A program made the translations under genes and the position numbers. From NCBI GenBank assembly GCA_933822405.4, contig CAKOGP040001758.1, positions 867,134 through 931,133 on the forward strand: a stretch of 64,000 nucleotides of DNA. Direction: 5' to 3'. The notes under the pieces are model-generated. The model worked only from the letters and a program-made list of their open reading frames with translations. It did not search any database and was not told where the DNA came from. Of this stretch, positions 6,951-25,700 are shown piece by piece (the first letter of the stretch is position 1; each line of letters opens with the position of its first letter). This stretch comes from Cylindrotheca closterium (Eukaryota > Bacillariophyta > Bacillariophyceae > Bacillariales > Bacillariaceae).

Positions 6951-9435
6951 CTAGTCAAACTGCATCAGTTTTCTGCGAATGTCATTCATCTTGCTTGTGG
7001 CCAAAGATTGTCGCAATCGTTGTCGAGCATCTTGCAGCAGTTCGATTAGCTCGGAATATTCTTGTCCCTTGCTTGCCAATTGTTCATACTCCATTCCCGC
7101 CTTGATATCTGGGTTCTGTCTCTGAATTGTAATCCTATCCGCCTCATCCTTTTCTTGTTTCTTAAGACGCCGGCCTTCCGCACGCTTTCTTCGTGCCATG
7201 ATGGTTTGAATGCACTTATGACACATGAAATCTTCGTCTGGCTCGGGAGCCTTGATGGTGAACTTATCGGCCATGCAATGCATGTGCACAGCATTCCGGC
7301 AGAAATCACAACACAACAAGCTACCTACGTCCTTGCAAATGGCACAATAATCAGTGTGATCGTCTCCCTTGTATCGCTTCTTACTCGGATACCGACCGGA
7401 ATCAATCTCATCCGCGAGCGCAGAAATATCAATAATGGGAGGAGTCGGCTTGACAACTTTCGCTCGTTTGCGACGTAAACTAGATCCAATATCTTTCCGA
7501 TTCTTTGGTTTTGTGTATCGAAGAGCCTTGTACACTTCCTTATACATGGACCCATACTTCTGGTCGTCGGAAACACGTTGGCGCTCTTCTAGCTTCTTTG
7601 CTAGGTCTTCCATAATCTTTTCGGGTGCATCCTTAGTTAGGGATAGGGTGGGTGGGGGTGCGTTGGAGCCCATCATTTCCATTTCAGTACTCGCATGAAA
7701 TAGCATGTCGTCTGTAAACTTAATATCCTCTTTGATTACCTTGTATCCCAGGGAAATGACTACCTCAGGGTACATCCCGAATACCTTCTTTCTCTTCCCC
7801 TTCCTCTTTCGAGGAGCAAAGTCCTGTTGGGGTTCATATTCAGGCGGGAAGCATTTGTTTGCAAGAATGCGCGATGCTCCCGCTTCCAAGGTATGTTGTG
7901 TCTCTTTTCTAGCTGCTGATAGTTTCGCATTTTTGGAAATGCACACACGATTTCGGACGTGATATGTGTAGCCTGGAGTCGAAGTAAACTTTCTGCCACA
8001 GTCTTCGCAAGCATTAATGTTCCCACTACCAACATATGGATCAGTCAGAATGCGCCGTTGGAGGAACAAGCGTTGCGTAGAATTTTGATTCTCCGGAATC
8101 GAGCCATCTAGCTGCACCCACACACACTCCACCATACGATCTGGACAAGCTTCCGGAGGGACATGGATATCGTCAGGCAGTAGGGGCATTGGCGCGAGTT
8201 TTTTGTTTTCGTTCAGGTCTGTCGGATTGCCACCGTGATAGGCAAAAAAAACCGACGTCTTGTTGATACTTTTTCCTTCTTCCAAAAGCATGTTGATCTG
8301 ACGCTTACGTGCTCGCAATCGAATGTACTTGGAAACCATGCATTTATGCCGTTGCTTTTCGGTCTTGATTTTCTTGGAATTGTATGTCCGCAGCTCGGTT
8401 GGCGGGATCTTGCACACTGGTGCTGTAGATTCACCCCGACCATCCGAAACGACTTGGACCACACCAAAGGTAGTCATGAATCGTTCGCCAGGTGCCAAAT
8501 TGTTGAGAATCATCTGTTTCGAGTCTGACTTGTTGTTCTGTTGACAAACCTTGCGACCTGATATTGCATGAATTTTTAAAATTAGCATGTGTGTTTCATC
8601 AACATGTCCATCAGATTCACTCCACAACCATCGTTACTTACTAATATGATAGTTTAATCCCAGAGTACTGGTGAATACCCGATCACAATCTGGACAACGT
8701 CGATCTTCCAATTTGCCCCGAAATCGTTTGCTGTAGCTTTTTGGTGTGTCGGTCCCTCTGGTCTTGGTTTTGCCCCTCGTTCGTTTCTTCTTGTTGGCCT
8801 TGGCTAGAATTTTCGGATCGGTACACTGATCTATGCGACAAACGTAGTTTGCTTAAAGTGACACGAGAAACGGATAATTATTGTGAGGAAAAGACTCGAG
8901 TGTGCCTAGTTGTGTCACTTTTGATCCATGCGCATATCAAGCTTGTCCAACACAAGATTGACACTAGCAGCAACTCACCAATATGATACTTGAGGCCTCC
9001 TTCGGAAGAAAATTCTTTTTCACAATGCGGACATTTATGCTTTCCCTTGCCGGTTTTGCGCTTCTTTTTGGGCTGTGCCACGTCTCCCTCCTCCTCATCG
9101 TCGTCATCCCTTTTGCCATCGCCTTTGCCGTCTTGATTGCTGTAAGCTTCGTCATCTTCAGTTTCATCCGCATCAATATTGGAAGCATGTTCATCCTTTA
9201 CATCCTCCTCATCCTCCGTGTCTTCTTCCTTCAATTTGGCCATAGCCCTCCTCGAAGCCCTCCTTGGCGACCGAGTCTTTCGCTGGATGCGTCCTTTCTT
9301 TTTGCTTGCGCCCTTTGCATGTGGAGACGACGACGCTGGACTTTCTTCGTCCTCCGTGTCCTCGTCGTCGTTGGACGGAATCAGCTCTTCGGCGTCTTCC
9401 TCCTTTTTAATTTCTTGTTTCTTTCGTTTGACCAT
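6951..9435 (-). CDS. C2HC zinc-finger and PHD-finger nuclear protein
   Basis: Three exons on the minus strand: 9435-8979, 8851-8642 and 8557-6951 (757 residues). Introns are 127 and 84 nt with gtgagt/ttaag and gtaagt/atcag borders, both phase 1. Exon 1 encodes a highly charged acidic/basic region and a finger starting CPHCEKEF with GGLKYHI. Exon 2 completes it (ANYVC), adds a basic stretch, and begins a second finger (CPDCDRVF, GLNYHI). Exon 3 completes that (SRKVC), adds a third (CEDCGRKF, GYTYHVRNRVC) and a PHD finger (CAICKDVGSLLCCDFC ... CHKC). PHD fingers read histone H3 tails, and the other fingers probably bind DNA, so a chromatin-associated regulator is likely. It shares strand but no evident operon logic with its neighbours. 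Confidence 0.85.
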
Positions 9436-10039
9436 GTTGGTAGGTCGTCTTCGTTTGTGATGTATTCATTACTCTTGAGATCGTGTCGATCGATCGATAT
9501 TCAATTTTTTTATGCTGCGTCTGACCGTCGTCCAAAACAAAAAGTTTCTTTCCAATCGGATGGGTCAACGTTTGATGGGTCAAAGTGGTCCAACGTGAAC
9601 CTGCTGAAAAGAAATAATTGAAGGCAAACACGGTGAAATCGAACGCTTTTTTTCCAGCGAGTGACCATCAGGTTGGCATGGTGACCAGGAAAGTGACATG
9701 GGACATGGACGAAAAGGTACCACAAACTATCTTGGTAGTTTGTTTCTTGGCCTAGAGGTCTTAGTAGTATAGTTAGAAGTAGTATTTGTATAATTGGGTT
9801 AATGGAATAATACAACTAGTAGTTTATGATGAATGAATGGATTATAGTTTCAATCAATCAATCAATCAATGAGGTATAGATCTAAAGATGATCCGCCAAA
9901 TCCATGGCTACAGTATCGCTCGTTGGATACAAGGATTCATGCAATCCTCCACCAATCGAATCGAGTGTCCAAAACAAACATGCTGTTTTGGCAAAATTGG
10001 AACCGCTCCCTCGTGGGCGCGAAAGTTATGTTTTCTTCT
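9436..10039. other. Intergenic with short CAAT tetranucleotide repeat
   Basis: 604 bases between the PHD gene start and the ShKT gene end. A short (TCAA)n run sits near 9852-9871. No supported gene on either strand. Confidence 0.5.
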
Positions 10040-10618
10040 CTATATGAATCGATTCTCCTCGACACCGATTAGTTCCAATTGTTCCATCGTAATGAGATGA
10101 CAAGATTGACAGGCTGGAGCGCAGTTGACTCGCATCCAGTCTCGGTTCGTCTCGCATTCTCCTTGTAGGACCCATCGGGTACAGTCGCGGTGTCGATTCC
10201 AACAATTCAAAAAGAGTTCCGGGGACAAATCCAAAACCGCATCACTGTCGATATACTTGCGGGTTTTCTTGACAATTAATGAAAGTTCATACGCATCTCT
10301 GCCCACTATATCTTGGAGCACACCAAATTCGGTGGTTCGTTCCTGGCTTTTGCAGAGTTTGCAAGATTCGGGACACAGTCGGTACATTAGATCCGGCTGT
10401 TTTCGGCACATTCCGTCCTTCGCAGACTTCAGACAGGCATTTCGTTTGTCTTTGCATGTCATGTTTTCGTCTATTCGGTCTTCAGATGATGATGTCGGAG
10501 CGTTCATGCTGAATTTGGCCTCTGCTACTTGTGATGAAGATAGCATCAGAAGAACCAGCATCGATAACAGCGTTATCCATGATCTGGATCTATATTGGTA
10601 CTGTATACTCCTTCTCAT
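10040..10618 (-). CDS. Secreted or membrane-anchored protein with two ShKT domains
   Basis: 192 residues. A hydrophobic N-terminal segment (WITLLSMLVLLMLSSSQVAEA) acts as signal peptide or anchor. Two ShKT six-cysteine modules follow, starting at CKDKRNAC (ending CPESCKLC) and CWNRHRDC (ending CAPACQSC), about 55 residues apart. ShKT domains are small disulphide-bonded modules common in secreted diatom proteins and in prolyl-hydroxylase tails; they often mediate protein or channel binding. No enzymatic domain is present. The final 20 residues are acidic. Function unknown; the name comes from the fold and does not imply toxicity. Confidence 0.82.
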   Translation of the reverse strand: MRRSIQYQYRSRSWITLLSMLVLLMLSSSQVAEAKFSMNAPTSSSEDRIDENMTCKDKRNACLKSAKDGMCRKQPDLMYRLCPESCKLCKSQERTTEFGVLQDIVGRDAYELSLIVKKTRKYIDSDAVLDLSPELFLNCWNRHRDCTRWVLQGECETNRDWMRVNCAPACQSCHLITMEQLELIGVEENRFI

Positions 10619-10796
10619 TGTATTTTATGCCCTGATTGCTTTGTACTGTATTGCTCAGCGTGTTGGATTACACGGTACAGAAACGAGAGAGGAAGAATAG
10701 AACTTGACGTTTTTCGTTGACCGTGGCGCTGCCTGCCTTCCTACTGGCGAATGAATCAAAGGTATTTTTGTTGCGTGCACGGTGATTGTTCTGGAC

Positions 10797-11072
10797 CTAG
10801 CCCTTTCTTGATGCCGCTGCTACTGCTCTCCCAAACAAATCACTATGAGAATACACCTTTGCTCTTTGTTGCTTGGCAGCCGGTGAAACCTTTTTTGTTT
10901 CCAGTTGCGTGATACGTGAACCTAGTTTCAGGGTTGTCGGTCCGTCCTCTGGCACATTACGTGACAAGTAAAACTGCATTGACTCCTTCGATTTCGATTT
11001 TCGACTCTGCGTATGTACAAAATGGTACATTGGCCGGCTTGGAGGTTCAAAAACAACCAGTTCGAGGCGCAT
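10797..11072 (-). CDS. Small ORF or terminal fragment, unrecognised
   Basis: A 91-codon frame starting MRLELVVFEPPSRP and ending FGRAVAAASRKG. Its composition (balanced charges, no low complexity) looks coding, and the frame stays open 16 codons upstream of the ATG to a TAA. It may be the last exon of a gene whose upstream exons I could not define; 11090-11220 minus also has a short coding-like frame (MFKTILKAFRES). It could also be a degraded gene or chance. No domain recognised. Confidence 0.3.
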   Translation of the reverse strand: MRLELVVFEPPSRPMYHFVHTQSRKSKSKESMQFYLSRNVPEDGPTTLKLGSRITQLETKKVSPAAKQQRAKVYSHSDLFGRAVAAASRKG

Positions 11073-11362
11073 TTCGTTCGCAATATGGCATAGATCCTGG
11101 CTTTGTGGCCCTTATTTGTCTGAATCACGGATTCTCCAATAGTGGTATGTCGTTAAATCGATCATCAGTTGATTCACGGAACGCTTTAAGTATAGTTTTG
11201 AACATTAATTCGATTTGTATCGTTTCGCAGAATGGCATAAGTCGGAATGAATCACAGAACTTTTTCAACCCGAATGACCATCATTTGTTGTTCCGAAAAT
11301 TCGGAATCATGGATGTAGCAAGGTTTCCCACATAATCTAAGACAGCAGACCATAAGAATTAA

Positions 11363-12061
11363 ATGAAGAAAAGGACTATCGACGCAGTTAACGAGGACGC
11401 TGCCCAATCGTTAGTCCGATTCAACAATAAGCGACAAAAAAGTGCTTACTGTCCTCTCTGTAGCGATGTTTTCTACATCGGCACAGCTTCGTACGACTTC
11501 TGCGTTCCCATTTCCTCCGCCAACGTCGAAAACAGGAAACTCGTCCGGGCTGGGCGACAACACTGTAAAAAGAAGCACCCGACCTCCTTTTTATGGAACC
11601 TTCTTCCGAGGAGGGACAAGTTACTCGCGAATATTCCTTCTCGCGAACTCACTTTGGATGTCGGTCTTGGTTCCGACAATGATATTTTTGAGGTTGATGC
11701 ACTTTTTGTAGTAGCGATGAGCAAGGCTGCTAAGTTGCACCCAGTTGGAGGTGACAGTTCCATTCATTTGATAAGGATCGGAATGTTGTGTCGCCTGTCC
11801 ATGGCCAAAGCTTGGTTGAAGTGGATGACATCGCGGCGATGTAGCCTGTCTTCTAAACTTGGCAAGGATAAGGCTAGGGAAGTTATTAAGAAGACAAGTG
11901 ACCGCTTAGAAGAACTTATACTCGCGCTGTCCGACATTCGACCAGTCTCCCATTTGCCCCAGGGTGCAACCGAAGTCTTCAACGAATTCAACCTTTTTGC
12001 TCTAATTCCAGGGCGCCACAGACAAACCTGGCTCGTGGACGGCCTCACTGGCCAGTTGTAG
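11363..12061 (+). CDS. Unrecognised 232-residue protein with zinc-finger-like Cys/His motif
   Basis: A basic N-terminus with a probable nuclear signal (NNKRQK) is followed by CPLC and, about 40 residues later, QHCKKKH. That is a CxxC...HxxxxH arrangement like a C2H2 finger with a long loop. The rest is helical with an Arg/Lys-rich middle and ends WLVDGLTGQL. I recognise no family. It lies tail-to-tail with the coiled-coil gene ending at 12311. It may belong to the same lineage-specific cluster as that gene and the DOT1-SET gene; shared function is conjecture. Confidence 0.55.
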   Translation: MKKRTIDAVNEDAAQSLVRFNNKRQKSAYCPLCSDVFYIGTASYDFCVPISSANVENRKLVRAGRQHCKKKHPTSFLWNLLPRRDKLLANIPSRELTLDVGLGSDNDIFEVDALFVVAMSKAAKLHPVGGDSSIHLIRIGMLCRLSMAKAWLKWMTSRRCSLSSKLGKDKAREVIKKTSDRLEELILALSDIRPVSHLPQGATEVFNEFNLFALIPGRHRQTWLVDGLTGQL

Positions 12062-12245
12062 AGCTCAACCATCACCATTCCTGGCGCTAAAATTATTTTA
12101 AGAAGACGTCTTTTTAAGCATGGCAAACATTATAATTTTATTATGGTAATATCGCAAAGTTGCCAACACTTAGTAGAAGTTAGGTCTATGACAACACCTC
12201 ATTCTTGCACTGTAAACTAGGATATGCCTAAAGTGAATGGTAGAG

Positions 12246-12325
12246 TTGCAGACATAGTAATAGGAAGCGGTTATGGTGATGGTGCTTGCAGACATAGTAA
12301 TAGGAAGCAGTTATGGTGCTGGTGC
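12246..12325. repeat. 40-bp tandem direct duplication
   Basis: The segment beginning ttgcagacatagtaatagg occurs twice, at 12246 and 12286, with a few substitutions. The second copy carries the TAA stop (minus strand, 12311-12313) of the coiled-coil gene and the first GGTGCT unit of its Pro-Ala tract. The first copy repeats the stop-containing sequence just beyond the gene. Confidence 0.85.
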
Positions 12326-14722
12326 TGGTGCTGGTGCTGGTGCTGGTGCTGGTGCTGGTGCTGGTGCTGGTGCTGGTGCTGGTGCTGGTGCTGGTGCTGG
12401 TGCTGGTGCTGGTGCTGCTGGTGAGAATGCAGCAGCATTCTTTTTCAACCTTGCATCCATCTTTGATTCCGAATCGTTACTTAGCACAGTAGCAAGTTCG
12501 TAGAGTTTCTGGTCGAGACAACGCTCAACCATGCCCCTTGCCGTGGGGAAGTATCCATCCTCTTGCCACATTTCTCCATATAGTGTGAACTGCCTCAAAA
12601 ATGTGTTCGCAATCCGGTTCTTTGTCGATCCCACGGTTTGTATTCCCGTCGACATCAGCTCCTGGAACATACTATTGATGATTGTTACAATGTATGGTTT
12701 TGCCGCGGAAATATAGACTGTGGTGAACCCATGTTCACTTTCCACAGTCTTTGTTGGACCTTTCTTATGTTCTATGCGAGCTGGATGGATCTTTTGATGG
12801 AAAACATCATCACACATCAGAAGCGTGAAGTTACACTCATTTTTGTTAGTCAACCTTTTAAGAATCTCAATCTTGGCCTGTTCGATCCAGTTTTTGACGG
12901 CCCGTGGGTCAGTAATCGTCTCCACTAGATTCGGTAACTGACTTCCTTTGGAAAATGTGTACGCGAAAAATTGCTCGCTTACAAATTGAGGAATAGTAAC
13001 CGTTCGGTTCTTCCACACTAATGGTGGGCCGTTGCGCCACCACATACCACATCTCGAATGACCATCTACTCTTTTGTGGTTGGGTGGTTTGCAGGCGACT
13101 CCACCTTTTGAAGTGCAGATATTGGCATGCTCACTCAGGTCGCAGAATGCCCCAATCGGGACAAGAGGTACTTCGGCTTCCGTTGGTGCTTCGGCTTCCG
13201 TTGGTGGTGCCCCTGCTTCTTCCAGTTCATCCTGGCCATTGGGTTCATCCTCGTCGGTTTCCTGGGTATTAGATTCATCGTCGGTCCCTGCTGCTTCGTG
13301 TTCATCCTGGCCATTAGATCCAACGTCTGACCGGTCTGACCCATTGTGGGAATCGGCTACATGCAGGTCTTGATCGCGTAGTCTTGCGATTTCATTTTCC
13401 ATTTGGGAGAGTTGGGTCGCATTCTCGTTCTCTGCTTCTTGGATGTTTCTAATGAATTGCTCGCGTCGTTGTGCTTGCCTCAGAAGCTGATCCCTTTCCT
13501 CTGTCACCGTTGCAATATCCGCCTGTCGCAGTACCCTCAACTCCTCTCTGGATCTATTTATTTTCCGCCGGTGTTGTTGATTAGTGTCTTTTGTCGACGT
13601 GTTGTACGGACTCAAGATGCATTCTACCTACCTTTGTAGCTCCAACTGGCAAGCAACCAAATCGTTTCGTTCGCGTTGGTGAACGACAAGAAAAGCATTA
13701 TGCTGGGTTTCCAACTGGTGACGCTGGGTCTGCACCCTGGCGAGTTCCGACGCGGCCTCCCTGGATTGCCGTTCTAATTCCTGCTCCGACTGCTCCACTC
13801 TCCTCCTTTTATTGGTGAGTTCTTCCTCCGTTTGCTGGCGTCGACGTTTCTTGTCTTCTAATTCGTTTGTCTTCTCCCTTAGCGCCCTTGTCATTCCGCA
13901 CCACGGCCCAAATCCGACAGACCCACAAGTAAGTGTGACACGCTCTAGCTTTTCTATGGCATTTTCTGGAAGCCCTGGATGATAGGCAAACCAGTTCTGG
14001 CAACAATCATATTGAATCATTTTTTCCACTTTCTGCTCCCCGAAGCTGGTGTAGCAAAGGTCGAAGAATAATTTGATGTTCGAGAGAGACTCTGGTTCCA
14101 GAAATCTGGTGCTCACTGTTACATTCAAAGATAATTGTAACATCACCGATAAGCATACCACATCAAGGTTGATTTCGTGACCATTGCTTGACTGAGATTC
14201 AAGGAAGTACTCTCCTGTAGATACAGTTGCCCAAATGGGTAGTTTCCCAAAGGCCTCCACCATTTTGTTTTCCGTTAGAAAATTACCGGCGGGTCCTTCT
14301 TTGAAGATACTTCTTCCCGTTATCTCCATGACTACTTCGCCCTGTTGGCTGACCGTGGCGCATTGTGTGAAAAGATGGACGTTTCTGCACGTCTTGACAA
14401 CAAAGCCCCAATCTTGTGTATGTTTCACTGTTGGATCAAGCAAGTCAAAGTCGTTGATTAAATGCTCTTCATTTTGGCACTGGTGAGAAATGCCGACCTT
14501 GGGACAATGTAGAAACCACTGTTCAACAACAGTGAAGTAGTTTTCATCTATTGGCAAGTCCGGTTTTGATGCAACGTGAAGTGATTGCTCGCAAGATACA
14601 ATGTTCTCCAACAGTTGTTCCGGTGTTAATTCACCTGCCCTTGTTTGAGGGGGTTCCAGGGAGCGACCAAATTGGCATGCAAGGTGGAACATGGACGAAG
14701 ATCTAACCCCACACGGATTCAT
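12311..14722 (-). CDS. Coiled-coil protein with Pro-Ala repeat tail
   Basis: Two exons, 14722-13632 and 13553-12311 (777 residues), joined by a 78-nt intron with gtaggt donor and aatag acceptor, phase 2; an alternative in-frame acceptor lies 6 nt downstream. The join is supported because the Glu/Arg/Gln-rich coiled coil that fills the end of exon 1 (from about residue 285) continues directly into exon 2. The 434-codon exon-2 frame also has no ATG at its 5' end. The N-terminal half is globular, with several Cys and no known domain. A second globular region (about 510-740) has scattered Cys/His and a conserved-looking TVYISAAKPY block. The protein ends in about 17 Pro-Ala dipeptides. It is divergent from the DOT1-SET gene (162 bases between starts), suggesting shared regulation. 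Confidence 0.6.
12315..12416. repeat. (GGTGCT)17 hexanucleotide microsatellite, coding
   Basis: 102 bases of uninterrupted GGTGCT. Read on the minus strand it encodes the Pro-Ala tail of the coiled-coil protein. Being a multiple of three, copy-number changes would only alter tail length. Confidence 0.97.
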
Positions 14723-14884
14723 TGGTGCGGTTTTGTGATTTTGTGATGTTGCCTTTTTTGATTATGTGTACGTCTTCGTACATAACCGTCGTGGCAAAAC
14801 ACGGGCCATTTTTCAGCGCCTCCAAACTCGTCTTCACGACGTACCAATACTTCCTGTCATTGTTGTATCTACTATCGCTGCATC
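14723..14884. promoter_or_regulatory. Putative bidirectional promoter
   Basis: 162 bases separate the divergent start codons of the coiled-coil gene (minus) and the DOT1-SET gene (plus). The short distance leaves room only for a shared control region and two short leaders. No specific motif is claimed. Confidence 0.45.
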
Positions 14885-17800
14885 ATGCCGAGGCAAGTCT
14901 CACAGAGCGCAATGGAGGAAGCGTGGAAGACGCAGACGCCCATCCTGGAGAAGCTAACTTGCGATGCAATGCTTGTCATACTTGAAATGAATGGCATCAC
15001 TCTAAAGAAACAGGGAAGGATCAGGAGAAAGTTCAAAAGACTTGTCCATCCAGACGTAGTCCAGGCATTCGACCTACAGTCGAATGAATTACTTGCTTTA
15101 TCTAAGGACGATATTTCGAAACAGTTGCTGGAAAAGCAAATGATGCGCCAAAAGCAAATGATGCGCCAAATGACGGTGGAAGACCGTCGTAATTTGGAAA
15201 AACTAGACTACCACAAGGCACGTTGGCGATGGATCAAGGATGACTTTCTGTCTCGTGGGTTGGTAACTACTTTTTCGCAGCCTGAGTGCTTCCAACAGCC
15301 GGTACCCGGTGCTAAAATGATAGTGAAGTTGAACGTACCCGGTGCTAAAATAAAGGTGGTGAAGTTGAACGTTCCAGAGCAGAATAGGCAACAAAGTAAT
15401 AGTATGCTACCGTCGGTTACCAAACCGGCAAACTTGGTAACTCCTGAAACGCCGGAATTTGCGGTCGGTCTTGTTGCAGAGTTGGTAACACCTCGACCTC
15501 CGAGTACTGACCGGGGAACGTTGACAACACATCCACTTCCACTTGTGGATGCAGACGATAATCATTTGCTGCCTACGGATTACATGGAGGATCGAGGATA
15601 CTTCAATACCGACTGGGGAACCTTGGCAACAATTGAACGATCGGCACCAGTGTCAACCTCTTACTCCTACTGCACAATTGAACGACGAGATAAATCAGTC
15701 GAGACATCAGTTCTGAGCTCTTACTCCTACTCCACGAGTGAACGACCAGACGATCCAGTCGAGACACCACCGGAAGAAACCATTGAGTCTTTTTTCACAC
15801 CGGAACAATTTGACAACGCAATGCAAGAAGAAGGTTCGGTTTATCATTCACCCCAAATGGGAGGTAGACTTATCTTCGGTGCGGACGAAGAAACAAGTTC
15901 ACTGGGAGATACACTGGGAGATACGGTTCTGTCGGAAGGGGAAGAAACTGAAGAAGAAAGGAAATTGGAGCTGTTGGATCAGTTTGCAATTCCAGTCAAG
16001 CGTCTCCTTTTGCAAACTTTGTGTGCCGAGGGGGGAACTATAGATTCCAATACGGTACTGGCAGCCGACTGCAACGACGGGGAGGTTCATTCCTGCTTTC
16101 AGAAGCAGTTTCATGCACTCGGTGTGCACGATCTGGAAAAACTTTTGGAAGATCCCTGTCACGTTCCAACTGGGATGGTACTGGCTCGAAACGCCGTTGG
16201 TAAGTTGAGACTGTACTGATTTCTACAACATATTATCTTGTCTAATGTCAGCGAAACAAAAAGAGCGAGAACACCAAAGGGAGAAACAACAATTGAAGGA
16301 ACAACGACAAAAGGAGAGGGCACTGCACACACAAAAGACAAAACTTACGAATATGAGGAAACGTCTGGAGAGAGAGGGAAGTCCTTATCGACAGATTGTG
16401 GATACTATTCACACCGTGTTCGGTAAGCAGGGAACAGAACTGGCACATAATGGAAGTTCGACCTATGCCGAAGTGACCAAAGAAACGATCACAGGAATTG
16501 TGGACATGCTCAAGGATCACCACAAGTATAAAGAAGACGACTGCCTCTTTGATGCTGGTAGTGGCATCGGTACTATGGTGTTTCGAATGTCGGTTGAGTT
16601 GCAGTGTCGTGCCTTGGGTATTGAGTACTGCAACCACCGTACATTCCTTGCTGCCCATGCCGCTATTAATTTGTTTGCAGAGTACAGGCTCGACGAACGG
16701 TTCAACCAAGGAACGATGCTTGCTCTGGGAGATCTGTATAACCTCCAACAGATACCTAAGCAAGTCACAACATTGATAATGTACGACGAGGCGTTTCCTC
16801 CCGGATTGATGCTCCACATGGCAGATCTCATCCAGGCAGCCCCGCCCAATCTCCAATTTGTTGTATCCGCAAAGGTCAACAGAGAGAGTTGCTACTCCCA
16901 GCTCTTAATCGACGCAGGATTAACAGAGCTGGGCAATGTCAAAGGAAGCAAAACGAACAATGGTGGAGCGACCACATTTACTCTGTTCAAACGCCTGGAA
17001 CCCCAAACGAACAAAGATGGAGGGTCCGCAGCTCCGGCAACCGCGTCAGTGTCGCCTGTGCCTGAGAAGGAGACACTCCATCTGCAGATCGAAGGAGAGC
17101 TCGAAAGATTCACGGTGGGGGGTTCCTACGAATCAAGATTGAAGTACTATGAGGCACTGAAAGCCTCAACTCAGAAAACTATGCAGCGGGAAAAGAAGCT
17201 ACGCAAACTGCATAGCAAGAAACGAGAGAAGAAGCATTGCCTATGTGCTGCTCAAGCGATGTGCGAGGCAAAATGCATCGGATGTGAGGAATACTTCGCT
17301 CATATCTCCGAAGATGAGCTCACATCCAAAAAAGTTACTTGGCTACCAAACCAACAGGGCCTTTTCTGTAAGACGAAGTTGAACAAGGACCAATTCGTCG
17401 TCGAGTACGCTGGGAGAATCAGGAAGACAACAAGCACCGACTGCGATCGGTACGTACTGTGTTTCGATGGGAAGCGCATCAACGCCAGGGGATATGGAAT
17501 CCAGCAGTTCGTGAACCATAGCTGCAATCCGAACTGTACCCTTACTAAGTGGACAGATGAGTACGGAAAGTCCAGAGTCTCCATCAGGACCAAGAGCAAC
17601 ATTCCATCCGAAACAGAACTGACGGTCGACTACGGTAGCGAAAGGGAGCCCTTCGACTGTATCTGCGCCCGTTGTCGCCCCATCACAAAAACGGTGATGT
17701 GGTTCGGGATGACGGGAACCACCTTTGAAAGTATGAAAGTAGACAGGCCCAGTATCACGCTGGGGAGGTCTGGGAAAAAAAAATGGTTGGCCGACTTCTG

Positions 17801-18863
17801 TAGTCGGAACGGCAATAAATTGGGTAAACAGGATGCCCGCGATTTCCTCCGCATATCGGCTGCGAGGTGGAAGAAAACAGAGGTCTACTCGGTATCGATT
17901 CAAACAATCGACGAAATCGAGATGCTGAATCGAGACCCAGTCTTCCACAACAACTGTGACTGGAATTCCCCAGATTGTCTGGCCAAGATCGTAGGGAAAG
18001 TGGACGTGGTTGAGTGCGACTGGGTTTGGATGCCGGCATCCTACCTATCGGATTGCTTGAAGAATGGGTTTTTTACTAAGGTGATTCCGGAGCTGATCAA
18101 ATGTCATCTTGCGCCTGGTGGTTACATTTTGTTACCACTCCAAATCCCCATCCTCGACCGAGTATTGGCCCACCAGAATGAGGGCAAATATTCAGTAACT
18201 TTGCTGACAGAACAAGAAGCGACGAAACTTAGCCCTTTGTTACAGGCCACGCACGAGCTACAGGCCATCATGACCGACAAAGAAACTAGGAGGGTTATGG
18301 GCAAAGCAAAACAGCAGCTGGATCAGTACGCTGGTATTGAAAGCCTATCGGTGGTAGATCAGACGGTCTCCTCTGCTATCGACGTCAAGGATTTCCTAAA
18401 TAACTACGCTGAAGAGAATGGCGACATTGGGAAGCTAAGATTCATTTGCATCAAAAGCAAACAGCCCAGTAAAAGCAGTCAGGCCGCTGGTATCGAAATA
18501 AAGCAGAGGAGCAAAAGAAAGCAGACGACAAAACCAACCGCTGCTGGCAAAAGGAAGGGTGTTCCGACAACGGAACCGGTGAAGGCGACAACTTCTGGTG
18601 CCAAACGAAACAAAAGGGCTGCAGGCAAAAGAAAGCAGACAACAAAACCAACCGCTGCTGGCAAAAGGAAGAGTGTTCCGACAACGGAACCGGTGAAGAA
18701 AACAACTTCTGGTGCCAAACGAAACAAAAGGGTGGTCGCTGCGGTCGTGGAGCAATCAACCAAAGCCAAAACCAAGATTTCCGTTGCCGCAACAGCTAGA
18801 AGCCGGAAGGCTCCAGGTTGTACCCCAAGAGAAATGCGGTTGAAAGCCAAAGTGCTAGGGTAG
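14885..18863 (+). CDS. DOT1-like/SET fusion methyltransferase with H1-like tail
   Basis: Exons 14885-16199 and 16252-18863 flank a 52-nt intron (gtaagt/gtcag, phase 1), giving 1308 residues. Residues 1-438 are mostly disordered with short internal repeats. At about 515-690 a DOT1-type domain shows YAEV, the SAM-binding FDAGSGIGTMVF (Asp539 region), GIEYCN and a DEAFPPG block. A Cys-rich segment (CLCAAQAMCEAKCIGC) precedes a complete SET domain (about 795-912) with YAGRI, NHSCNPNC (860-867), LTVDYG and post-SET CICARC. About 985-1100 resembles the second half of a PRMT Rossmann domain (VDVVECDW ... APGGYILLP), but motif I is not seen. The tail has two 38-residue Lys-rich repeats. DOT1 methylates H3K79 and SET proteins methylate histone tails; the joint substrate here is unknown. 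Confidence 0.8.
16200..16251 (+). other. 52-nt intron joining the two DOT1-SET exons
   Basis: Begins gtaagt and ends atgtcag; splicing keeps phase 1 and joins codons GCC GTT G|CG AAA. Without splicing the upstream frame ends at a TGA (16217-16219), splitting the protein into 444 and 872 residues. Confidence 0.8.
18511..18738 (+). repeat. Two 114-bp tandem repeats encoding a Lys-rich tail
   Basis: Copies at 18511-18624 and 18625-18738 are nearly identical and each encodes 38 residues rich in Lys, Thr, Pro and Ala (KRKQTTKPTAAGKRK core). Period and composition resemble histone H1 C-terminal tails. Confidence 0.9.
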
Positions 18864-18889
18864 GATACTAATTAGTATATGAATATGAA

Positions 18890-19327
18890 TTACAAATGTG
18901 TAATCTGATGATATCCGGGTACTCCTTCGAATGCCCCATCTTCAATAACAACACCGCGACAGAGGTTAAGTATTCGAGAAAGACTAGTACAATCCTTGAA
19001 TGCAGAGACTTCAACAAGCCTTAGGCGGGGAGGAAAGTGTACCATTGTCACACTAATGCACCCCCGAAAGGTTCCACTCCTGATGATTCGAACCTTCGTG
19101 CAACTCAGATTCACCTCGAGCATACTTGAGCAGTTCATGAATGCCTGTCGTCCAATATCATTCAAAAGGGAAGAGAATGGAAATCCGCGGAGGTTTGAAG
19201 CGTTCATGAAAGCCTCCTCTCCAATACGTTCCAGACGCTGTCTTCTAGCAGCCTTCGCTTTGTTTTTCGTTTTCTTGCTCATTTTAGAAAAGAAGTTTGC
19301 TTTGGATTGCCATGCCCACCGTGTCAT
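18890..19327 (-). CDS. Short BspA-type leucine-rich repeat protein
   Basis: 145 residues. After a basic N-terminus (KKTKNKAKAARRQR), about four LRR_5-type repeats follow, recognised by recurring IGEEAFMNAS, IGRQAFMNCS, IRSGTFRGC and VEVSAFKDCTSL units. It is far shorter than typical diatom BspA-LRR proteins (such as the 641-residue one at 27567), so it may be a truncated copy. It ends 26 bases from the stop of the DOT1-SET gene, tail-to-tail. Role unknown; such repeats usually bind proteins. Confidence 0.65.
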   Translation of the reverse strand: MTRWAWQSKANFFSKMSKKTKNKAKAARRQRLERIGEEAFMNASNLRGFPFSSLLNDIGRQAFMNCSSMLEVNLSCTKVRIIRSGTFRGCISVTMVHFPPRLRLVEVSAFKDCTSLSRILNLCRGVVIEDGAFEGVPGYHQITHL

Positions 19328-19467
19328 ACTCCACGCTACTCCCTACTCTTCGGGGTGTGCACGGAGGTTATAACACGATGACTCCGCCATGGTCAACGCT
19401 CAGTAGTTACTAGATAAAACAATGACTAATTAACATTACACATCATGTGCTAACCGCAGTCACGGGC

Positions 19468-19899
19468 CTATCGAGCTGACCGGACGTTAAGATTGGATTT
19501 TTTCAGAACAACGAGCAGTCGACTATCACCAAAAATATCTCCAAACGCTACGTAGACAAACTCGGTTGTGGTGCCAATGATATAGCCAACTTCGCCGTCC
19601 ATTTGGGGTTCCCAAAGGACGGTAACTCGCTCTCCAAACTTATGATTGCTGCTGTTTTTCTTTTGGGGAAAGGGAGACTTCCGTTTGTTGATCTCAGCTA
19701 GATCCCTTGCCACCATTTTCAGTTTGTGATGAACGTTTTTATTTGGACTGGGCCTGTTAGTATTTGGGCCAAAAGAAAGCTCTGCAAGCCTTTTTTGCAG
19801 CTCTTCCAGTCTCGCCTTTTCATCCTCTATGCGACTTTCCGCATCCGTGATTAATGCGCAGATCTCCTGCTTTGTTTCCATGTCCCCTGACCTTGCCAT
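19468..19899 (-). CDS. Coiled-coil protein with SH3-like (Tudor/KOW-type) C-terminus
   Basis: 143 residues from the first ATG (MARSGDMETKQ). The frame is open further upstream, but only through GTG codons and palindromic repeat sequence. About residues 5-40 form a Glu/Arg coiled coil (SRIEDEKARLEELQKRLAEL). The C-terminus (GERVTVLWEPQMDGEVGYIIG, then FVYVAFGD) has the strand-turn pattern of small SH3-like barrels that bind nucleic acid or methylated tails. No firm family. The position next to the chromatin-writer gene is suggestive but may be coincidental. Confidence 0.5.
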   Translation of the reverse strand: MARSGDMETKQEICALITDAESRIEDEKARLEELQKRLAELSFGPNTNRPSPNKNVHHKLKMVARDLAEINKRKSPFPQKKNSSNHKFGERVTVLWEPQMDGEVGYIIGTTTEFVYVAFGDIFGDSRLLVVLKKSNLNVRSAR

Positions 19900-19952
19900 C
19901 CTGTTGGGATGTTGCTTTTTGCATTGCAGACTCACGACTGTCACAGTACCTG

Positions 19953-20180
19953 ATGGCCCCAGAATGCCCAGAATGTGGCCCCAGGATCCATTCACACTTG
20001 GAGATTTGCCCCCAGAATCCGTAACACACTTGGAGATTTGCCCCCAGAATCCGTATTACGGATTCTGGGGGCAAATCGCAATCACGAAAAGTTCATTCAC
20101 GCTTGGAGATTTGCCCCCAGAATCCCTAATACGGATTCTGGGGGCAATCCAAAAGGCCGTAATATGGACTCTGGGGCCAC
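19953..20180. repeat. Cluster of palindromic and inverted repeats
   Basis: The unit cttggagatttgcccccaga (followed by atccgta) recurs near 19998, 20030 and 20102, with degenerate relatives at 19953-19985 and 20160-20180. At 20036-20076 two 20-bp arms flank a single base as a perfect hairpin. At 20111-20147 two 15-bp arms (ttgcccccagaatcc) flank a 7-base loop. The cluster sits between the divergent coiled-coil/SH3-like gene and the twin-Cx9C gene. Confidence 0.9.
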
Positions 20181-20432
20181 ATCTGTATCACGAATAATCG
20201 CAGCGTTGGGAAACGACATCACGAAGGCGAGAAGGTTGCATAGATATTGGATTCATTCGACCGAAACGAGAGATTTGGTCGGACGAGAACAGACGTCGTT
20301 ACGAAAACCTCAAACCAACTCATTCATTCATTGCCCAAGAAGATTGATTGGTCTCTTTCACTTTTAACTTGGCATCTCTCTCGCCTCCTAACAAGATTCA
20401 ACACATACTGTAGAATCTCTAACCTCACCACT

Positions 20433-20693
20433 ATGGGATGGTTTTCCAAAAATAATCCCGATCTTACCACCACTGCGAAAGAATCATCGAACAAAGTAGT
20501 CTGTGTCGATTGCGACGCCAAGACCAATCAAGTTCCATTGCCCTCCCAAGATAAAATTTCCTCCGAGGGCAAGGAATGTTCAGTAACCTATACTTTGGTG
20601 GCAGAATGCATGAAACAAAACAAGGGACAAGTGACAGCTTGTACCAAGGAATGGGATGCTTTCAAGAATTGTCATTCCAAGGTGTCTGCTTGA
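20433..20693 (+). CDS. Twin-Cx9C (CHCH) protein, probably mitochondrial intermembrane space
   Basis: 86 residues. The C-terminal half contains two C-x9-C pairs (CSVTYTLVAEC and CTKEWDAFKNC) separated by a short turn, the coiled-coil-helix-coiled-coil-helix fold imported and oxidised by the MIA40 relay. Such proteins are cytochrome oxidase assembly factors or respiratory complex subunits. An extra CVDC pair lies at about residues 24-27. The ATG at 20433 begins the conserved-looking part and is preceded by a leader (acctcaccact); an upstream ATG at 20247 in the same frame would add 62 unlikely residues. Confidence 0.75.
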   Translation: MGWFSKNNPDLTTTAKESSNKVVCVDCDAKTNQVPLPSQDKISSEGKECSVTYTLVAECMKQNKGQVTACTKEWDAFKNCHSKVSA

Positions 20694-21387
20694 TGTTATC
20701 GCGTTGCGTTGCTTTGGTTTGGTTTGGTTTGGTTTGGTTTGGTGGGTTGTCATGTGATGAATGGGGGCTGGCTGCAAGTAAGGAATTGACAGTCACCGGA
20801 GCAGTAGTGACAGACCGCCAGTTCTGAATACCCAGCTGGTACATTGACATGCGCGATACATACTACATGCTGCACACACAGTCCAAGAATCCAACAGAAT
20901 GTTTGTTGTCGACGACTATATGTACCTTATTGTGGCGAAATGTTGTCCAGCTGCACCATTTTCCATGGAATCATCATCTTGGTACAGAATGACAAGAATG
21001 CAAGACGGGCCGTGGCTGCCTTTCGGTGATACGGCTAATTAGTAAACCCTCTAGTAGTATAATTTCAGCTCTCTTTTTCGTTATTTTCAAATACACTACA
21101 GTTATACTTGCTTTGCTGGCTAGCTTCAAACTACACTGTATCTAAATTCGATTGACTTGGATATGCTTTCGACCATGCTCGTTTGCTGAGCTGTGGCGCA
21201 GTCCTTTTGTAAGGACCAGTTTCCCCGACTGATATTATGATTGTGATGATGATCATGATATGGGAGCAACAAATCCAAGTGAAAATGAAAACCACACAGT
21301 GTTTGATAGAATGATATCGTAGACGGACGCAAATACATATACATGTATATGGTATTTCCAACCCAATAGTGCAATGGACTGGTAGTC
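20694..21387. other. Intergenic with (TTTGG)6 repeat
   Basis: 694 bases between the convergent Cx9C and MND1 genes. A (TTTGG)6 tract lies at 20713-20742, just past the Cx9C stop codon, probably in its 3' UTR. No other gene is supported. Confidence 0.6.
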
Positions 21388-22245
21388 TCATTTTTCTTCT
21401 GGGTCTATTTGGCACCGGACAAGGAAGGAAGAAACAAATGTTAGAAAACATGGAAAAAACAATGACGATAGTATGAAAAACTCGCGAATCAATCAAATCA
21501 TCAATGCGTGAACGCAACTAACAACGTACAATCAAAGTTGGCAGTAATGCCCAAAATTTTCTGTTTCCAGGAGAAGGGGATACAACATATTTGTGTGAGA
21601 ACGAAAATCGATTGGCTCGAAAATACATGAACGGAGAGACTATTTTCATTAAAAAACAAAGAACTTACATTCACTTCCTTCTTGTCCATGCCTTTCTTCT
21701 TGACAAGGTAGCTCTTGCACTCGAAGATGTTATCGGTCCAGCGGTTTGCGGCGTCTCGCACCAATTGGTACTCCTTTTCCAAATTGGCCAAGGCGGCGGG
21801 ATCGTTCTCCTTCAAGGCTTGCAGTTGTTGTTCCAATGCTGCCTTTGTCTGGGCCAAAGTGGAAAGTTTGGCCAATTTGGCAGCTCGAGTATCTTCTTCC
21901 GTTCCTCCATCTTCTCCTACTTCGACTTCTTCGCGACCACGCTTGGCATCGGCCAATCTGGCCTTGGCTTCTTCGACTTTGGGTTGCAGAGCTTCAATTT
22001 GTTCCAAGGTTGCCTTGTGTTGCTTTTGGGCCATTCGATCCTTCTTGGACTTGAAACTCCAGCAGTAGTTGGTACCGCCAATCTTTTGCTTCTCCACCAA
22101 GGCATCGTCGACCAATGACTGATGAATATCAGGAATAGTTTGAGCATTGATGCCAGCCTTGGAGGCAAGTGTGATCATTTCCTTTTCGGTGTAGACTTGT
22201 TGCGTCTTGTGATACAAACTAGAGTAGATCGATGGAGCGAGACGA

Positions 22246-22292
<47 letters not shown>

Positions 22293-22502
22293 AATTGATT
22301 GAATGGACCGAAAAGTGGGACAAGCACAACAATAGTAAGAGGATGATCGAGACAAATGCGAATGACAATGGTCTTTTCAAACAGTTTTTGGAATTTTAAG
22401 GTTCGAATCCTTTTTTCATTTTTCCCAAAGAGAAGAATGCAAGACTTACCCGAGGATCACATTTCGCTTTTCGTCTTTGGTCATGCGCTTTGTTCCTCCC
22501 AT
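21388..22502 (-). CDS. MND1: Meiotic nuclear division protein 1 homologue
   Basis: Four exons (22502-22450, 22218-21669, 21560-21530, 21404-21388) give 216 residues. MND1 pairs with HOP2 and stimulates RAD51/DMC1 strand invasion in meiotic homologous recombination, in the nucleus. The family features are all present: N-terminal MGGTKRMTKDEKR and winged-helix region with SLVDDALVEKQKIGGTNYCW, a central coiled coil, the family motif ANRWTDNIF, and a C-terminus KILGITANFDYPEEK that is recovered only by splicing the last two tiny exons. Donors are gtaagt, gtaagt and gtacgt. Intron 2 (108 nt) is stop-free and a multiple of three. Intron 1 carries a TTGA microsatellite. The gene is divergent from the vWA gene. 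Confidence 0.88.
22246..22302. repeat. (GATT)n microsatellite in MND1 intron 1
   Basis: About 57 bases of near-perfect gatt repeat with one interruption (ttaattg), located just upstream of the exon-2 acceptor on the minus strand. Confidence 0.9.
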
Positions 22503-22880
22503 CTTTTACGTGACTAAATGAATGAAGGAATGAAGGAATGAATTCTTTGAACTGTTGTAATGAATTGAATGCCTTTTTGCCACTCCGTGCGTTGACGATT
22601 GATTGATGATTCCTTCGAAGTGGATGATGACAACTGTTGGTTGAAAAATAGTTTGGCGCAGACTTGCCAACGACTGACTCATTCGACTATGGATCCAATG
22701 GTTAGTCGAAGAGGTCGAGGTATCCATCCATATCTTTTCCGACGCGACACATTCGAACATGGTGATAGTTAGTCGAGTCATTTCAGTGAGACCCACAGAC
22801 CCACCAACAAGCAGGTTTCGGATGACAGCTTACTATTGATTGTCTACGCCACACACTCACAATATTTCAGTGCAGTCAAA
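22503..22880. promoter_or_regulatory. Divergent intergenic region between MND1 and vWA genes
   Basis: 378 bases separating two start codons on opposite strands, so it must hold both promoters. Short gaatgaa repeats occur near 22520. No defined motif is claimed. Confidence 0.45.
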
Positions 22881-25700
22881 ATGAGCGGAAAAAATGACGA
22901 CACGGAAAACAAATCTGCCGATGAAAAGGCTGAAGAAGCCTTGATGAAAGCTTGCACATTGAGCCGCGACGTGTCCATGGAAGAGTGCCATCAGCTTGTC
23001 AAGACCATTCTCGAGTCTGCCAAATATGCCCCAGTCCTTCCCGTCCTTATTTGTCACCTTCGAAATCACGAAAAGAGTTTGGTAGAAGGACAGGGCTCCG
23101 GCGAGCGAAATGTTGCCGAACGATTGGCAGTCGCGCTCTACCTATGCGACGATGTGATGGGACGTGTCCTCTTCAAGTTTTTGGTCCTGTTTGGATCTTG
23201 GAAGAGTCTCTTGAACATCCTATGCTTATGCGATGCTCTAAACAACCCAGAAGCCATGAAAGAAAAAGCTGAAAGGAAAGGAAAAGCCAAAACAAAGAAA
23301 CGAAAAAAGGGCGCAAATGACGAGGATGATGTCGAAAAGGACAAGGGTGATGAAATCAAACTGACGAGCGCTGCAGAATCTGGACCCTACATGGACCTTT
23401 GTCATGACATTCACGATTATTTTGTGGAACAGCTGAGACGTGACAAAGCTGCCATTGATGCAGGAGAAAAAAAGGTATCCAATGCTAGCAAGTATGCTCC
23501 ACATGAACGGCGTGGACGAGACTTGACGTCCTTGCATGCTGACGAAATAGCTAAGAAGATCTTTCCGAATGAGGGAGATAGCGGTGGTGATAATAAGCAC
23601 TATCTTCGAAAGCTGTATCGCAAACTACGCTCTCAATTGAATCAAACCAATGAATATCTACCGGATCGCAAATTGGCATTGGGAAAAGCGGATCAGCTTC
23701 AAATGCATCAAATTACAGCAGGATACTTTGCCAAGTCTAGAAAGGCGCTGTTGAATCGCAACAAAGATGGACAAGAGCGTTACGATTCAGAGCCGAGGAG
23801 AAACTTGAGAAGACTAGTCTTGGAGGCAGCTGCAACTCCTCAGAAAGTTCCAACACCTTCGGACCTACAGCAGCTGGCAACGGATATCAGTTTTATTGTG
23901 GACGACGATGACGAAGAGTTGATCTTGCTTCAAGCCAGCTTTGAAAAGGCTGTAATGGTAGTTACGGATAGGATTCACGAGTTGCAAAACACTCTCAAGA
24001 GTATGATGACGTCTCTCTCCATGAGTAGACCAGAAGAGTTGAGCGTTTTGAACCTTGATGATGTTTTGATGGCTATTGATGTTAGTCCATCCCAAGCTTA
24101 TACATTTCCACTGGTCGCACTACTGGTTATTCTGTTCCACACCGTCATCAACAAGTTAAAGGAGGAAGAAGGAAAGGCCGAAGCAATGGATGAAGATGGA
24201 GACCAAAAGAAGATGACCGCTCATGAGTGTGTCCTGTTCCATCAGACAACTCAAACCATACCCGTACCCGTGACGGGTACCATCCGCCAAAGATTGTCAA
24301 CGCTCGTCAAGTCGTTCCGAGAAGCTCGTTTGACAGTCGATGGGCAAGAGAGCGGGGAGAATGAGTATACCAGTCTCTTGCAAACTTTGAAGTCGAAAGT
24401 GACAGGTCGCCCAGAAGCACCTGTTCTGGTTTGCTCGGACTTTGCTTCCTCTCCTGAGTTTGCCATCGCGGTGGAAGAACAGTTCGCCGATGTGGGAAAC
24501 GAATTGTGTTGTTGGAAATTGTCCAAGCCCACAAGGATCCGCAATCGCAAAATTGTATCTTGGGACTCGGCGAAACCTCAAATCGATCTTTGCATTTGCC
24601 TTGATACAACTGGGTCCATGGGGAGTCATATTGAGAGTTGCAAGAGTGAGATTCTAAATCTTCTCAATGACTTGATGGCGGGGGGAGGAATGGCAGTGTC
24701 CTGTTCCTTTGTCTCATACAAAGACTTTACAAACGCAGGACACTTGGAAACTCATGACTGGGTTAGTGCGTCGGATGCCGCTGGAACTGCGTCATTACGC
24801 CGATTCATTACTGGCTTGAGACCGACGGGTGGAGACGACTGGGAAGAAGATGTCGCCGGTGGTTTCGAGAAGTGCATTGATCTGATGAAAAAGAAGAAGG
24901 ATCAATCAAGTCTCAAGCTGGTATTGTTGATTGCCGACGCCCCTGCCCATGGATATCCAGACGGTAGACCAAATTACAATGGAGTCGATCAAAAAGAAAG
25001 GTTGCGAAAAGCAACTCGCCGGTTGGCAGCAGCACCTCACAACGGTGGATTTGGTTGTGAGCTCATGTTTGCGGAAATCAATCCTAATACAACCGGAATG
25101 TGTGACGCCATTGACAAAGTCCTCGAACCTGAAGGGACCTATATTGATCAGTTCGAAATGGGGCAAGCGAAAAGTAGCGTTTTCCGAGAAAAGATTGTGG
25201 CGAGCGTTCAACAAGTGGTGTCCCATGCTGTTGCGCCACCAGCCGCTGTAGGCTTGGATGTCATTTCTGGCACAGACATTGGTATCTGTGAACGTCTCCT
25301 TGCAAGTCGACTAAGCAACCGGTTGCAACAGCTTCTTGAGAAGAAAGCAGAGGAGGAGAAGGAGGAGGAGGAGGAGGACACGGAGATGAATGAGGATTCT
25401 GGTGAGGCAAAACCCAAGAAAGCTTTGCCAACAGCGTTGGGGAACTTGTTGGGAAAACTGGATGGAGAAGCATACAACATGGTCCGACATGCCATGGGAA
25501 CCGTCAAAACAGGATTATATGCTTCATATCAAGTTCCCACAAATTCGGGACTTTCTGAGGCAAGCGTTTTGAGCCTGATCAAGGCAGGCATCACAATGGA
25601 AGATTTGATAGCAAACGGTTACCCAAAACATATTCAAGATATGTTTGAGGAAGTCTTGCGCGGTATGATGACGCAAGGGGCCGGAAAAATAAATGGATAG
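22881..25700 (+). CDS. von Willebrand A-domain protein with DUF2828/TROVE-like N-terminus
   Basis: 939 residues from the ATG at 22881 (MSGKNDDTENK); an ATG at 22836 would add 15 residues. The N-terminal 450 residues are helical. They contain FGSWKSLLNIL, KYAPHERRGRD and a YRKLYRKLRSQLNQTNEYL block, resembling DUF2828/TROVE-type helical repeats that precede vWA domains. The vWA domain begins near 570 with the MIDAS DTTGSMGS (Asp575), followed by SYKDF, RPTGGDDWEEDVAGG and LIADAPAHG, the form found in vWA-alpha-kinase proteins; no kinase domain is present. A Glu-rich stretch (about 825-845) and a short helical C-terminus follow. It is probably a cytosolic metal-dependent binding protein or scaffold. 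Confidence 0.82.
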   Translation: MSGKNDDTENKSADEKAEEALMKACTLSRDVSMEECHQLVKTILESAKYAPVLPVLICHLRNHEKSLVEGQGSGERNVAERLAVALYLCDDVMGRVLFKFLVLFGSWKSLLNILCLCDALNNPEAMKEKAERKGKAKTKKRKKGANDEDDVEKDKGDEIKLTSAAESGPYMDLCHDIHDYFVEQLRRDKAAIDAGEKKVSNASKYAPHERRGRDLTSLHADEIAKKIFPNEGDSGGDNKHYLRKLYRKLRSQLNQTNEYLPDRKLALGKADQLQMHQITAGYFAKSRKALLNRNKDGQERYDSEPRRNLRRLVLEAAATPQKVPTPSDLQQLATDISFIVDDDDEELILLQASFEKAVMVVTDRIHELQNTLKSMMTSLSMSRPEELSVLNLDDVLMAIDVSPSQAYTFPLVALLVILFHTVINKLKEEEGKAEAMDEDGDQKKMTAHECVLFHQTTQTIPVPVTGTIRQRLSTLVKSFREARLTVDGQESGENEYTSLLQTLKSKVTGRPEAPVLVCSDFASSPEFAIAVEEQFADVGNELCCWKLSKPTRIRNRKIVSWDSAKPQIDLCICLDTTGSMGSHIESCKSEILNLLNDLMAGGGMAVSCSFVSYKDFTNAGHLETHDWVSASDAAGTASLRRFITGLRPTGGDDWEEDVAGGFEKCIDLMKKKKDQSSLKLVLLIADAPAHGYPDGRPNYNGVDQKERLRKATRRLAAAPHNGGFGCELMFAEINPNTTGMCDAIDKVLEPEGTYIDQFEMGQAKSSVFREKIVASVQQVVSHAVAPPAAVGLDVISGTDIGICERLLASRLSNRLQQLLEKKAEEEKEEEEEDTEMNEDSGEAKPKKALPTALGNLLGKLDGEAYNMVRHAMGTVKTGLYASYQVPTNSGLSEASVLSLIKAGITMEDLIANGYPKHIQDMFEEVLRGMMTQGAGKING

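Follow-up and report, generated by a model that had tools for sequence, protein, structure and literature searches.

Analysis of a 64,000-nucleotide (nt) stretch of the genome of the diatom Cylindrotheca closterium (contig CAKOGP040001758.1, positions 867,134 to 931,133; hereafter the window) revealed a gene, at positions 14885-18863 of the forward strand, that probably encodes one chromatin-type methyltransferase composed of a divergent DOT1-like class I domain, a SET domain, a conserved third region and a basic tail. DOT1-type and SET-type enzymes carry out the same chemistry with unrelated folds, and they are normally separate chromatin proteins. A single polypeptide joining the two is supported here, because curated profiles score both domains within one open frame and a paralogue of this region bears signs of selection. 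A first-pass annotation of this DNA had placed a DOT1-like domain, a SET domain and a possible PRMT-like region in one protein; the profiles and the paralogue uphold the first two, while the third found no support in the tests made here. A natural DOT1-SET fusion would couple two marks covalently; to our knowledge, other eukaryotes couple them through complexes only. Such a fusion would also be an example of a composite enzyme that has recruited the DOT1 fold, and it would offer a testable model among organisms with little-studied chromatin.

Gene structure

Removal of a putative 52-nt intron (GTAAGT...TCAG; 16200-16251), which changes the frame and contains the in-frame stop codon of exon 1, leaves 1309 codons including one terminal stop, i.e. 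1308 residues without an internal stop. The coordinates, intron and protein length proposed previously were thus borne out by splice arithmetic. Exon 1 (14885-16199) encodes residues 1-438 and one base, the first, of codon 439. The Pfam search found no known domain in it, the sole match (DUF3027, E = 0.022) being under the cut-off. Exon 2 (16252-18863, including the stop codon) encodes residues 439-1308. Its start forms a long charged helix in the predicted model, with a predicted local distance difference test score (pLDDT) of 80 across the first 20 residues, and this helix may bind a partner. The predicted structure of the entire exon 2 had a pLDDT of 34, and no fold search was run with that model.

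The two exons might instead be separate, unspliced genes. An ATG at position 16245 lies in the frame of exon 2, where it opens an unbroken open reading frame (ORF) of 872 amino acids (aa; 16245-18863) that holds the DOT1-like domain, the SET domain, the third region and the tail, and the intron is a prediction from the sequence. This arrangement is nevertheless decidedly unlikely in view of the GTAAGT donor, the TCAG acceptor and the exact restoration of the frame. Even if it were true, the DOT1-like and SET domains would remain fused: the fusion is independent of the intron, since both domains lie in exon 2, in the single 872-aa frame. Among 300 mononucleotide shuffles of exon 2, the longest stop-free run was 183 codons, compared with the 872 observed.

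The SET domain

SET domains are characterized by the catalytic NHSC motif and C-terminal tyrosine, and by a GxG motif for S-adenosylmethionine (SAM). The SET domain of the window protein (17358-17636; residues 808-900) matched nearly the full PF00856 profile (positions 3-105 of 105) with 51.4 bits, against a Pfam curated gathering cut-off of 22.4 (E = 1.6e-13 in exon 2 and 1.9e-14 with the region alone). The nearest PDB sequences, taking the best row of each, were NSD2 (E = 9.1e-9), ASH1L (3.9e-8) and SETD2 (1.2e-7). The NHSC motif (residues 860-863) and the tyrosine of ELTVDY (residue 899) are present, and both are kept in a diverged paralogue on contig C311 of the same genome (572 contigs, 47.6 Mb, used for all own-genome comparisons). 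At the GxG position the protein reads NQQG, so that the second glycine alone is kept (TQRG in the paralogue). The domain is preceded by the pre-SET cysteines C768, C770, C776, C780 and C783 (17238-17285), all five unchanged when the protein and the paralogue are aligned as a pair, and followed by the post-SET cysteines CxCxxC (17658-17675; residues 908-913), all three of which the paralogue keeps.

The likeness to the NSD2/ASH1L/SETD2 group lies in the NHSC...KWT...TELTVDY pattern and in the cysteine clusters on both flanks. The differences are the glutamine in place of the first glycine of GxG, the CxCxxC spacing in place of CxCx4C, the fusion to a DOT1-like domain, and the AWS/Pre-SET family, which Pfam did not report for the window protein. 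With its NHSC motif and tyrosine intact, this SET domain of the NSD/ASH1L/SETD2 type would be an active protein-lysine methyltransferase.

The DOT1-like domain

The DOT1-like class I methyltransferase domain (16434-17006; about residues 500-690) was assigned on the basis of a Pfam match, a PDB profile match and a low-confidence model. Profile PF08123 (DOT1) matched residues 511-580 with 28.8 bits (E = 1.1e-6) when exon 2 was used and with 31.3 bits (E = 1.8e-7) for the region alone, and both scores clear the curated gathering cut-off of 23 bits. The profile search suggested in the first-pass annotation thus places DOT1 and SET above their cut-offs in one ORF. The DAGSGIG sequence (motif I; residues 539-545, 16551-16571) reported there is likewise present, as are the NHSC motif and both cysteine clusters, and the domain contains GIEY with its glutamate intact. 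NCBIfam gave only matches far under the cut-off, including a methyltransferase at E = 0.031 for this region. A PHROGs match to it (E = 0.31) was disregarded.

The closest comparison within the genome is a DOT1-like protein encoded on contig C112. Its local alignment with the window domain scored 104 (z-score 10.1), a score reached by none of 400 shuffles. Both share the pattern YxE - DxGSGIG - FPP, and the C112 protein also matches PF08123 in part only (positions 18-80); it differs in being stand-alone, with no SET domain within 120 kb among the matches listed. A profile built from the two was compared with 177,635 PDB sequences: the H3K79 methyltransferase DOT1L came top (E = 0.0022), and the first non-DOT1 row appeared at E = 0.017.

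Residues 495-700 gave a low-confidence model (pLDDT 50.0; predicted template modelling score, pTM, 0.49), in which the order of helices and strands is as expected for class I and which matches class I enzymes. Two alignments, A5 and A6, were of poor quality and were left unfolded; in A7, which was folded, the C112, C392 and C555 rows were shortened and the second C112, second C555 and C196 rows were dropped. Of the 50 Foldseek rows shown for the 495-700 model, nearly all are methyltransferases by their titles, with template modelling (TM) scores of 0.46 for Trypanosoma brucei DOT1A, 0.45 for yeast Dot1 and 0.44 for DOT1L. A Rossmann fold at residues 515-690 had been named beforehand as the feature on which the domain assignment should stand or fall, and this model, at pLDDT 50, did not refute it.

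Two observations weigh against a functional DOT1 domain. The PF08123 match extends at most over profile positions 20-91 of 205, i.e. the N-terminal half, and the DOT1-like part is in this sense divergent. In DOT1 the catalytic asparagine is carried by the NNF motif (NNFAF), and this motif is not recognisable in the window protein; the segment set by eye at its position reads YDEAFPP, and the printed DOT1L alignments stop short of there. These points leave the earlier suggestion that one enzyme writes marks on both the globular core and a tail without direct support. Compared with the DOT1/KMT4 family (human DOT1L, yeast Dot1, T. brucei DOT1A), the likeness is confined to the N-terminal-half match with motif I and to the class I fold of the low-confidence model, while the fusion to SET, the unmatched C-terminal half and the lack of a recognisable NNF motif set the protein apart.

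The same two points would also suit a protein that is functionally SET-only, its DOT1-like domain being a degenerate, non-catalytic SAM-binding module. We regard this as a credible possibility, though not a probable one: DAGSGIG and GIEY are intact, and the FPP variant appears to be a family feature rather than a sign of decay, because the C112 protein has it too. Motif I and the glutamate of GIEY suggest that the domain may still bind SAM, with an altered substrate pocket. Most likely, SET would be the main catalyst of the fused methyltransferase, and the DOT1-like domain would either methylate a second site or serve as a SAM-binding helper. A bolder version, in which two active, unrelated lysine methyltransferase domains would place two chromatin marks per binding event, with the tail on DNA and in association with a coiled-coil-like neighbour, seems to us rather doubtful.

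The third region and the basic tail

The third region (17709-18476; residues 925-1180) had been described as PRMT-like. Part of it, KVDVVECDWVWMP...LAPGGYILLP, looks by eye like the later half of a Rossmann methyltransferase, and one sub-piece matched FtsJ in Pfam under the cut-off (E = 0.031). Three writers per chain, i.e. DOT1-like and SET domains with a PRMT-like arginine methyltransferase, could be imagined on these grounds, but the remaining evidence makes this extremely improbable. No PRMT family appeared in the Pfam listings at a maximum E of 10, where filters discard most matches above about 0.1, and no match was found in NCBIfam or, up to E = 10, in PDB. In alignments with the PRMT1-like, second PRMT-like and PRMT7-like proteins of the genome, the region gave z-scores of -0.14, 0.44 and -0.09, respectively, which is the level of shuffled sequences (510 of 1000, 298 of 1000 and 193 of 400 shuffles scored as high). 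Motif I is not recognisable in it. The resemblance to class I methyltransferases of the PRMT and FtsJ kinds is thus a visual one (residues 1021-1067), lacking a significant score, and the PRMT-like third domain was rejected on the Pfam, PDB and shuffled-alignment tests.

The region also scored at shuffle level against the DOT1-like domain of its own protein (z-score -0.85). PHROGs returned nothing at E = 1, and the other Pfam match under the cut-off was a phage neck domain (E = 0.055). A PADLOC match, PDC-M03A (E = 0.022; residues 1068-1143), was disregarded. It is possible that the third region represents a degenerate Rossmann half. Judging by a paralogous fragment, it is conserved in its core (17928-18071; residues 998-1045), where 26 of 48 residues are identical.

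The lysine/arginine-rich tail (18462-18860; residues 1176-1308) contains two near-identical repeats, which correspond to a 108-nt internal repeat in the DNA, and KRK/KRNKR clusters. The first-pass annotation called it histone-H1-like; of its 133 residues, 38 are lysine or arginine. The tail may anchor the protein to nucleic acid.

Paralogues within the genome and signs of selection

SET domains are common in this genome, with at least 80 places in the 47.6 Mb, compared with at least four DOT1 places. In keeping with a diatom, the genome also has 12 matches to the silicon transporter family, each of them above the cut-off and the best at 848.9 bits. Two contigs carry extended copies of the gene. 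On C196, residues 584-1308 are present with 720 of 725 residues identical (98% DNA identity), and the copy breaks off inside the DOT1-like domain; its changes (four synonymous, six non-synonymous) are too few for selection to be judged. The diverged copy on C311 covers residues 624-920 with 154 of 298 residues identical (52%); in it, the final third of the DOT1-like domain (624-690, after motif I), the linker and SET are joined in one frame. It lacks the first two thirds of the domain, and with them motif I and YDEAFPP, and the genome search for DOT1 gave no C311 entry among the matches listed.

The non-synonymous substitution rate (dN) of the C311 copy is 0.38 and the synonymous rate (dS) about 2.5, giving a dN/dS of 0.154, a rough ratio given that dS is saturated. 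The 283 codons contain 99, 76 and 156 differences at the first, second and third positions, respectively. This pattern shows purifying, protein-level selection on the diverged paralogue across the last DOT1-like third, the linker and SET. Immediately upstream of it lies an ORF of 865 aa (L017 4475-7072, reverse strand) with weak Tudor matches only (PF21743, 21.9 bits; cut-off 27.2), overlapping the SET paralogue by 4 nt. This ORF may be an alternative N-terminal partner for the DOT1-SET part.

The C311 copy ends 2 bp from a 7.1-kb stretch with direct repeats of 211 bp at its two ends (99.5% identical to each other). Within this stretch is an ORF that, by eye, looks like a copia-type polyprotein. 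Beyond this stretch lies the fragment matching residues 998-1045, also found on C141, with codon-position differences of 19, 12 and 27; about 70 residues of the intervening region were not found at C311. The end of C311 carries rearranged fragments with stops, at 92-98% DNA identity. Three tblastn matches were ignored: residues 789-844 on C311 (E = 0.08) and on C141 (E = 0.10), and residues 127-139 on C196 (E = 0.59).

The whole DOT1-like-to-SET order is intact in the window only, and no second intact copy was found among the genome matches listed. Together with the truncated C196 copy, the rearranged fragments and the diverged copy cut by a putative retroelement, this could mean that the locus belongs to a decaying low-copy repeat unit and that the gene is becoming a pseudogene. 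We consider this unlikely, given that the window copy is open over all 1308 codons and that the diverged paralogue bears the marks of purifying selection.

Collections of viral and prokaryotic contigs, which say little about other diatoms, were also scanned. In the viral collection, the exon 2, A1, A2, A3 and A4 queries gave 5, 116, 102, 72 and 164 pattern matches, respectively, while the prokaryotic collection yielded 24 with exon 2 and 126 with A1; none was confirmed by tblastn. A giant-virus origin of the gene is without support in these two collections.

Genomic neighbourhood

A divergent neighbour (12311-14722, reverse strand; ORFs 13628-14722 and 12311-13615), coiled-coil-like in part, begins head-to-head about 160 bp from the DOT1-SET gene. 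A relative of the first ORF occurs on C311 and on C141, near the pieces of the DOT1-SET paralogue that these contigs carry (z-score 14.8 outside the coiled-coil-like part; none of 500 shuffles scored as high). The second ORF is more weakly linked, through a short stretch at a z-score of 5.3, and in a whole-genome search with it C311 and C141 were not among the matches listed. A PHROGs match to this ORF (E = 0.0096) was disregarded.

On C196 (L014 3139-7164), window position 20201 is followed by 9 bp and then by window position 11291, the junction that a tandem copy of the 8.9-kb stretch 11291-20201 would give. A tandem array of this stretch would put both genes in convergent orientation, like the pieces on C141 and C311. 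The DOT1-SET gene and its coiled-coil-like neighbour may have been duplicated together, given the tandem-like junction on C196 and these convergent pieces. The left end of the stretch carries the palindrome TTCCGAAAATTCGGAA. There is no support for a transposon of high copy number flanked by terminal inverted repeats: among the best candidates, the DNA of 10800-20600 matched two other contigs only, and when 9001-14000 was compared with 18501-24000 by short words, just inverted matches of 19-22 bp inside a simple repeat emerged.

Further genes of the window were noted on the reverse strand. A second SET protein, SMYD-like by eye, is encoded at 11-1372 (42.6 bits), and an ORF at 6951-8627 has, by eye, a PHD-finger-like cysteine pattern (CAICKDVGSLLCCDFC) and may encode a further chromatin protein. 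Just downstream of the DOT1-SET gene, positions 18893-19327 contain an ORF with BspA-type leucine-rich repeats (PF13306, E = 5.4e-17).
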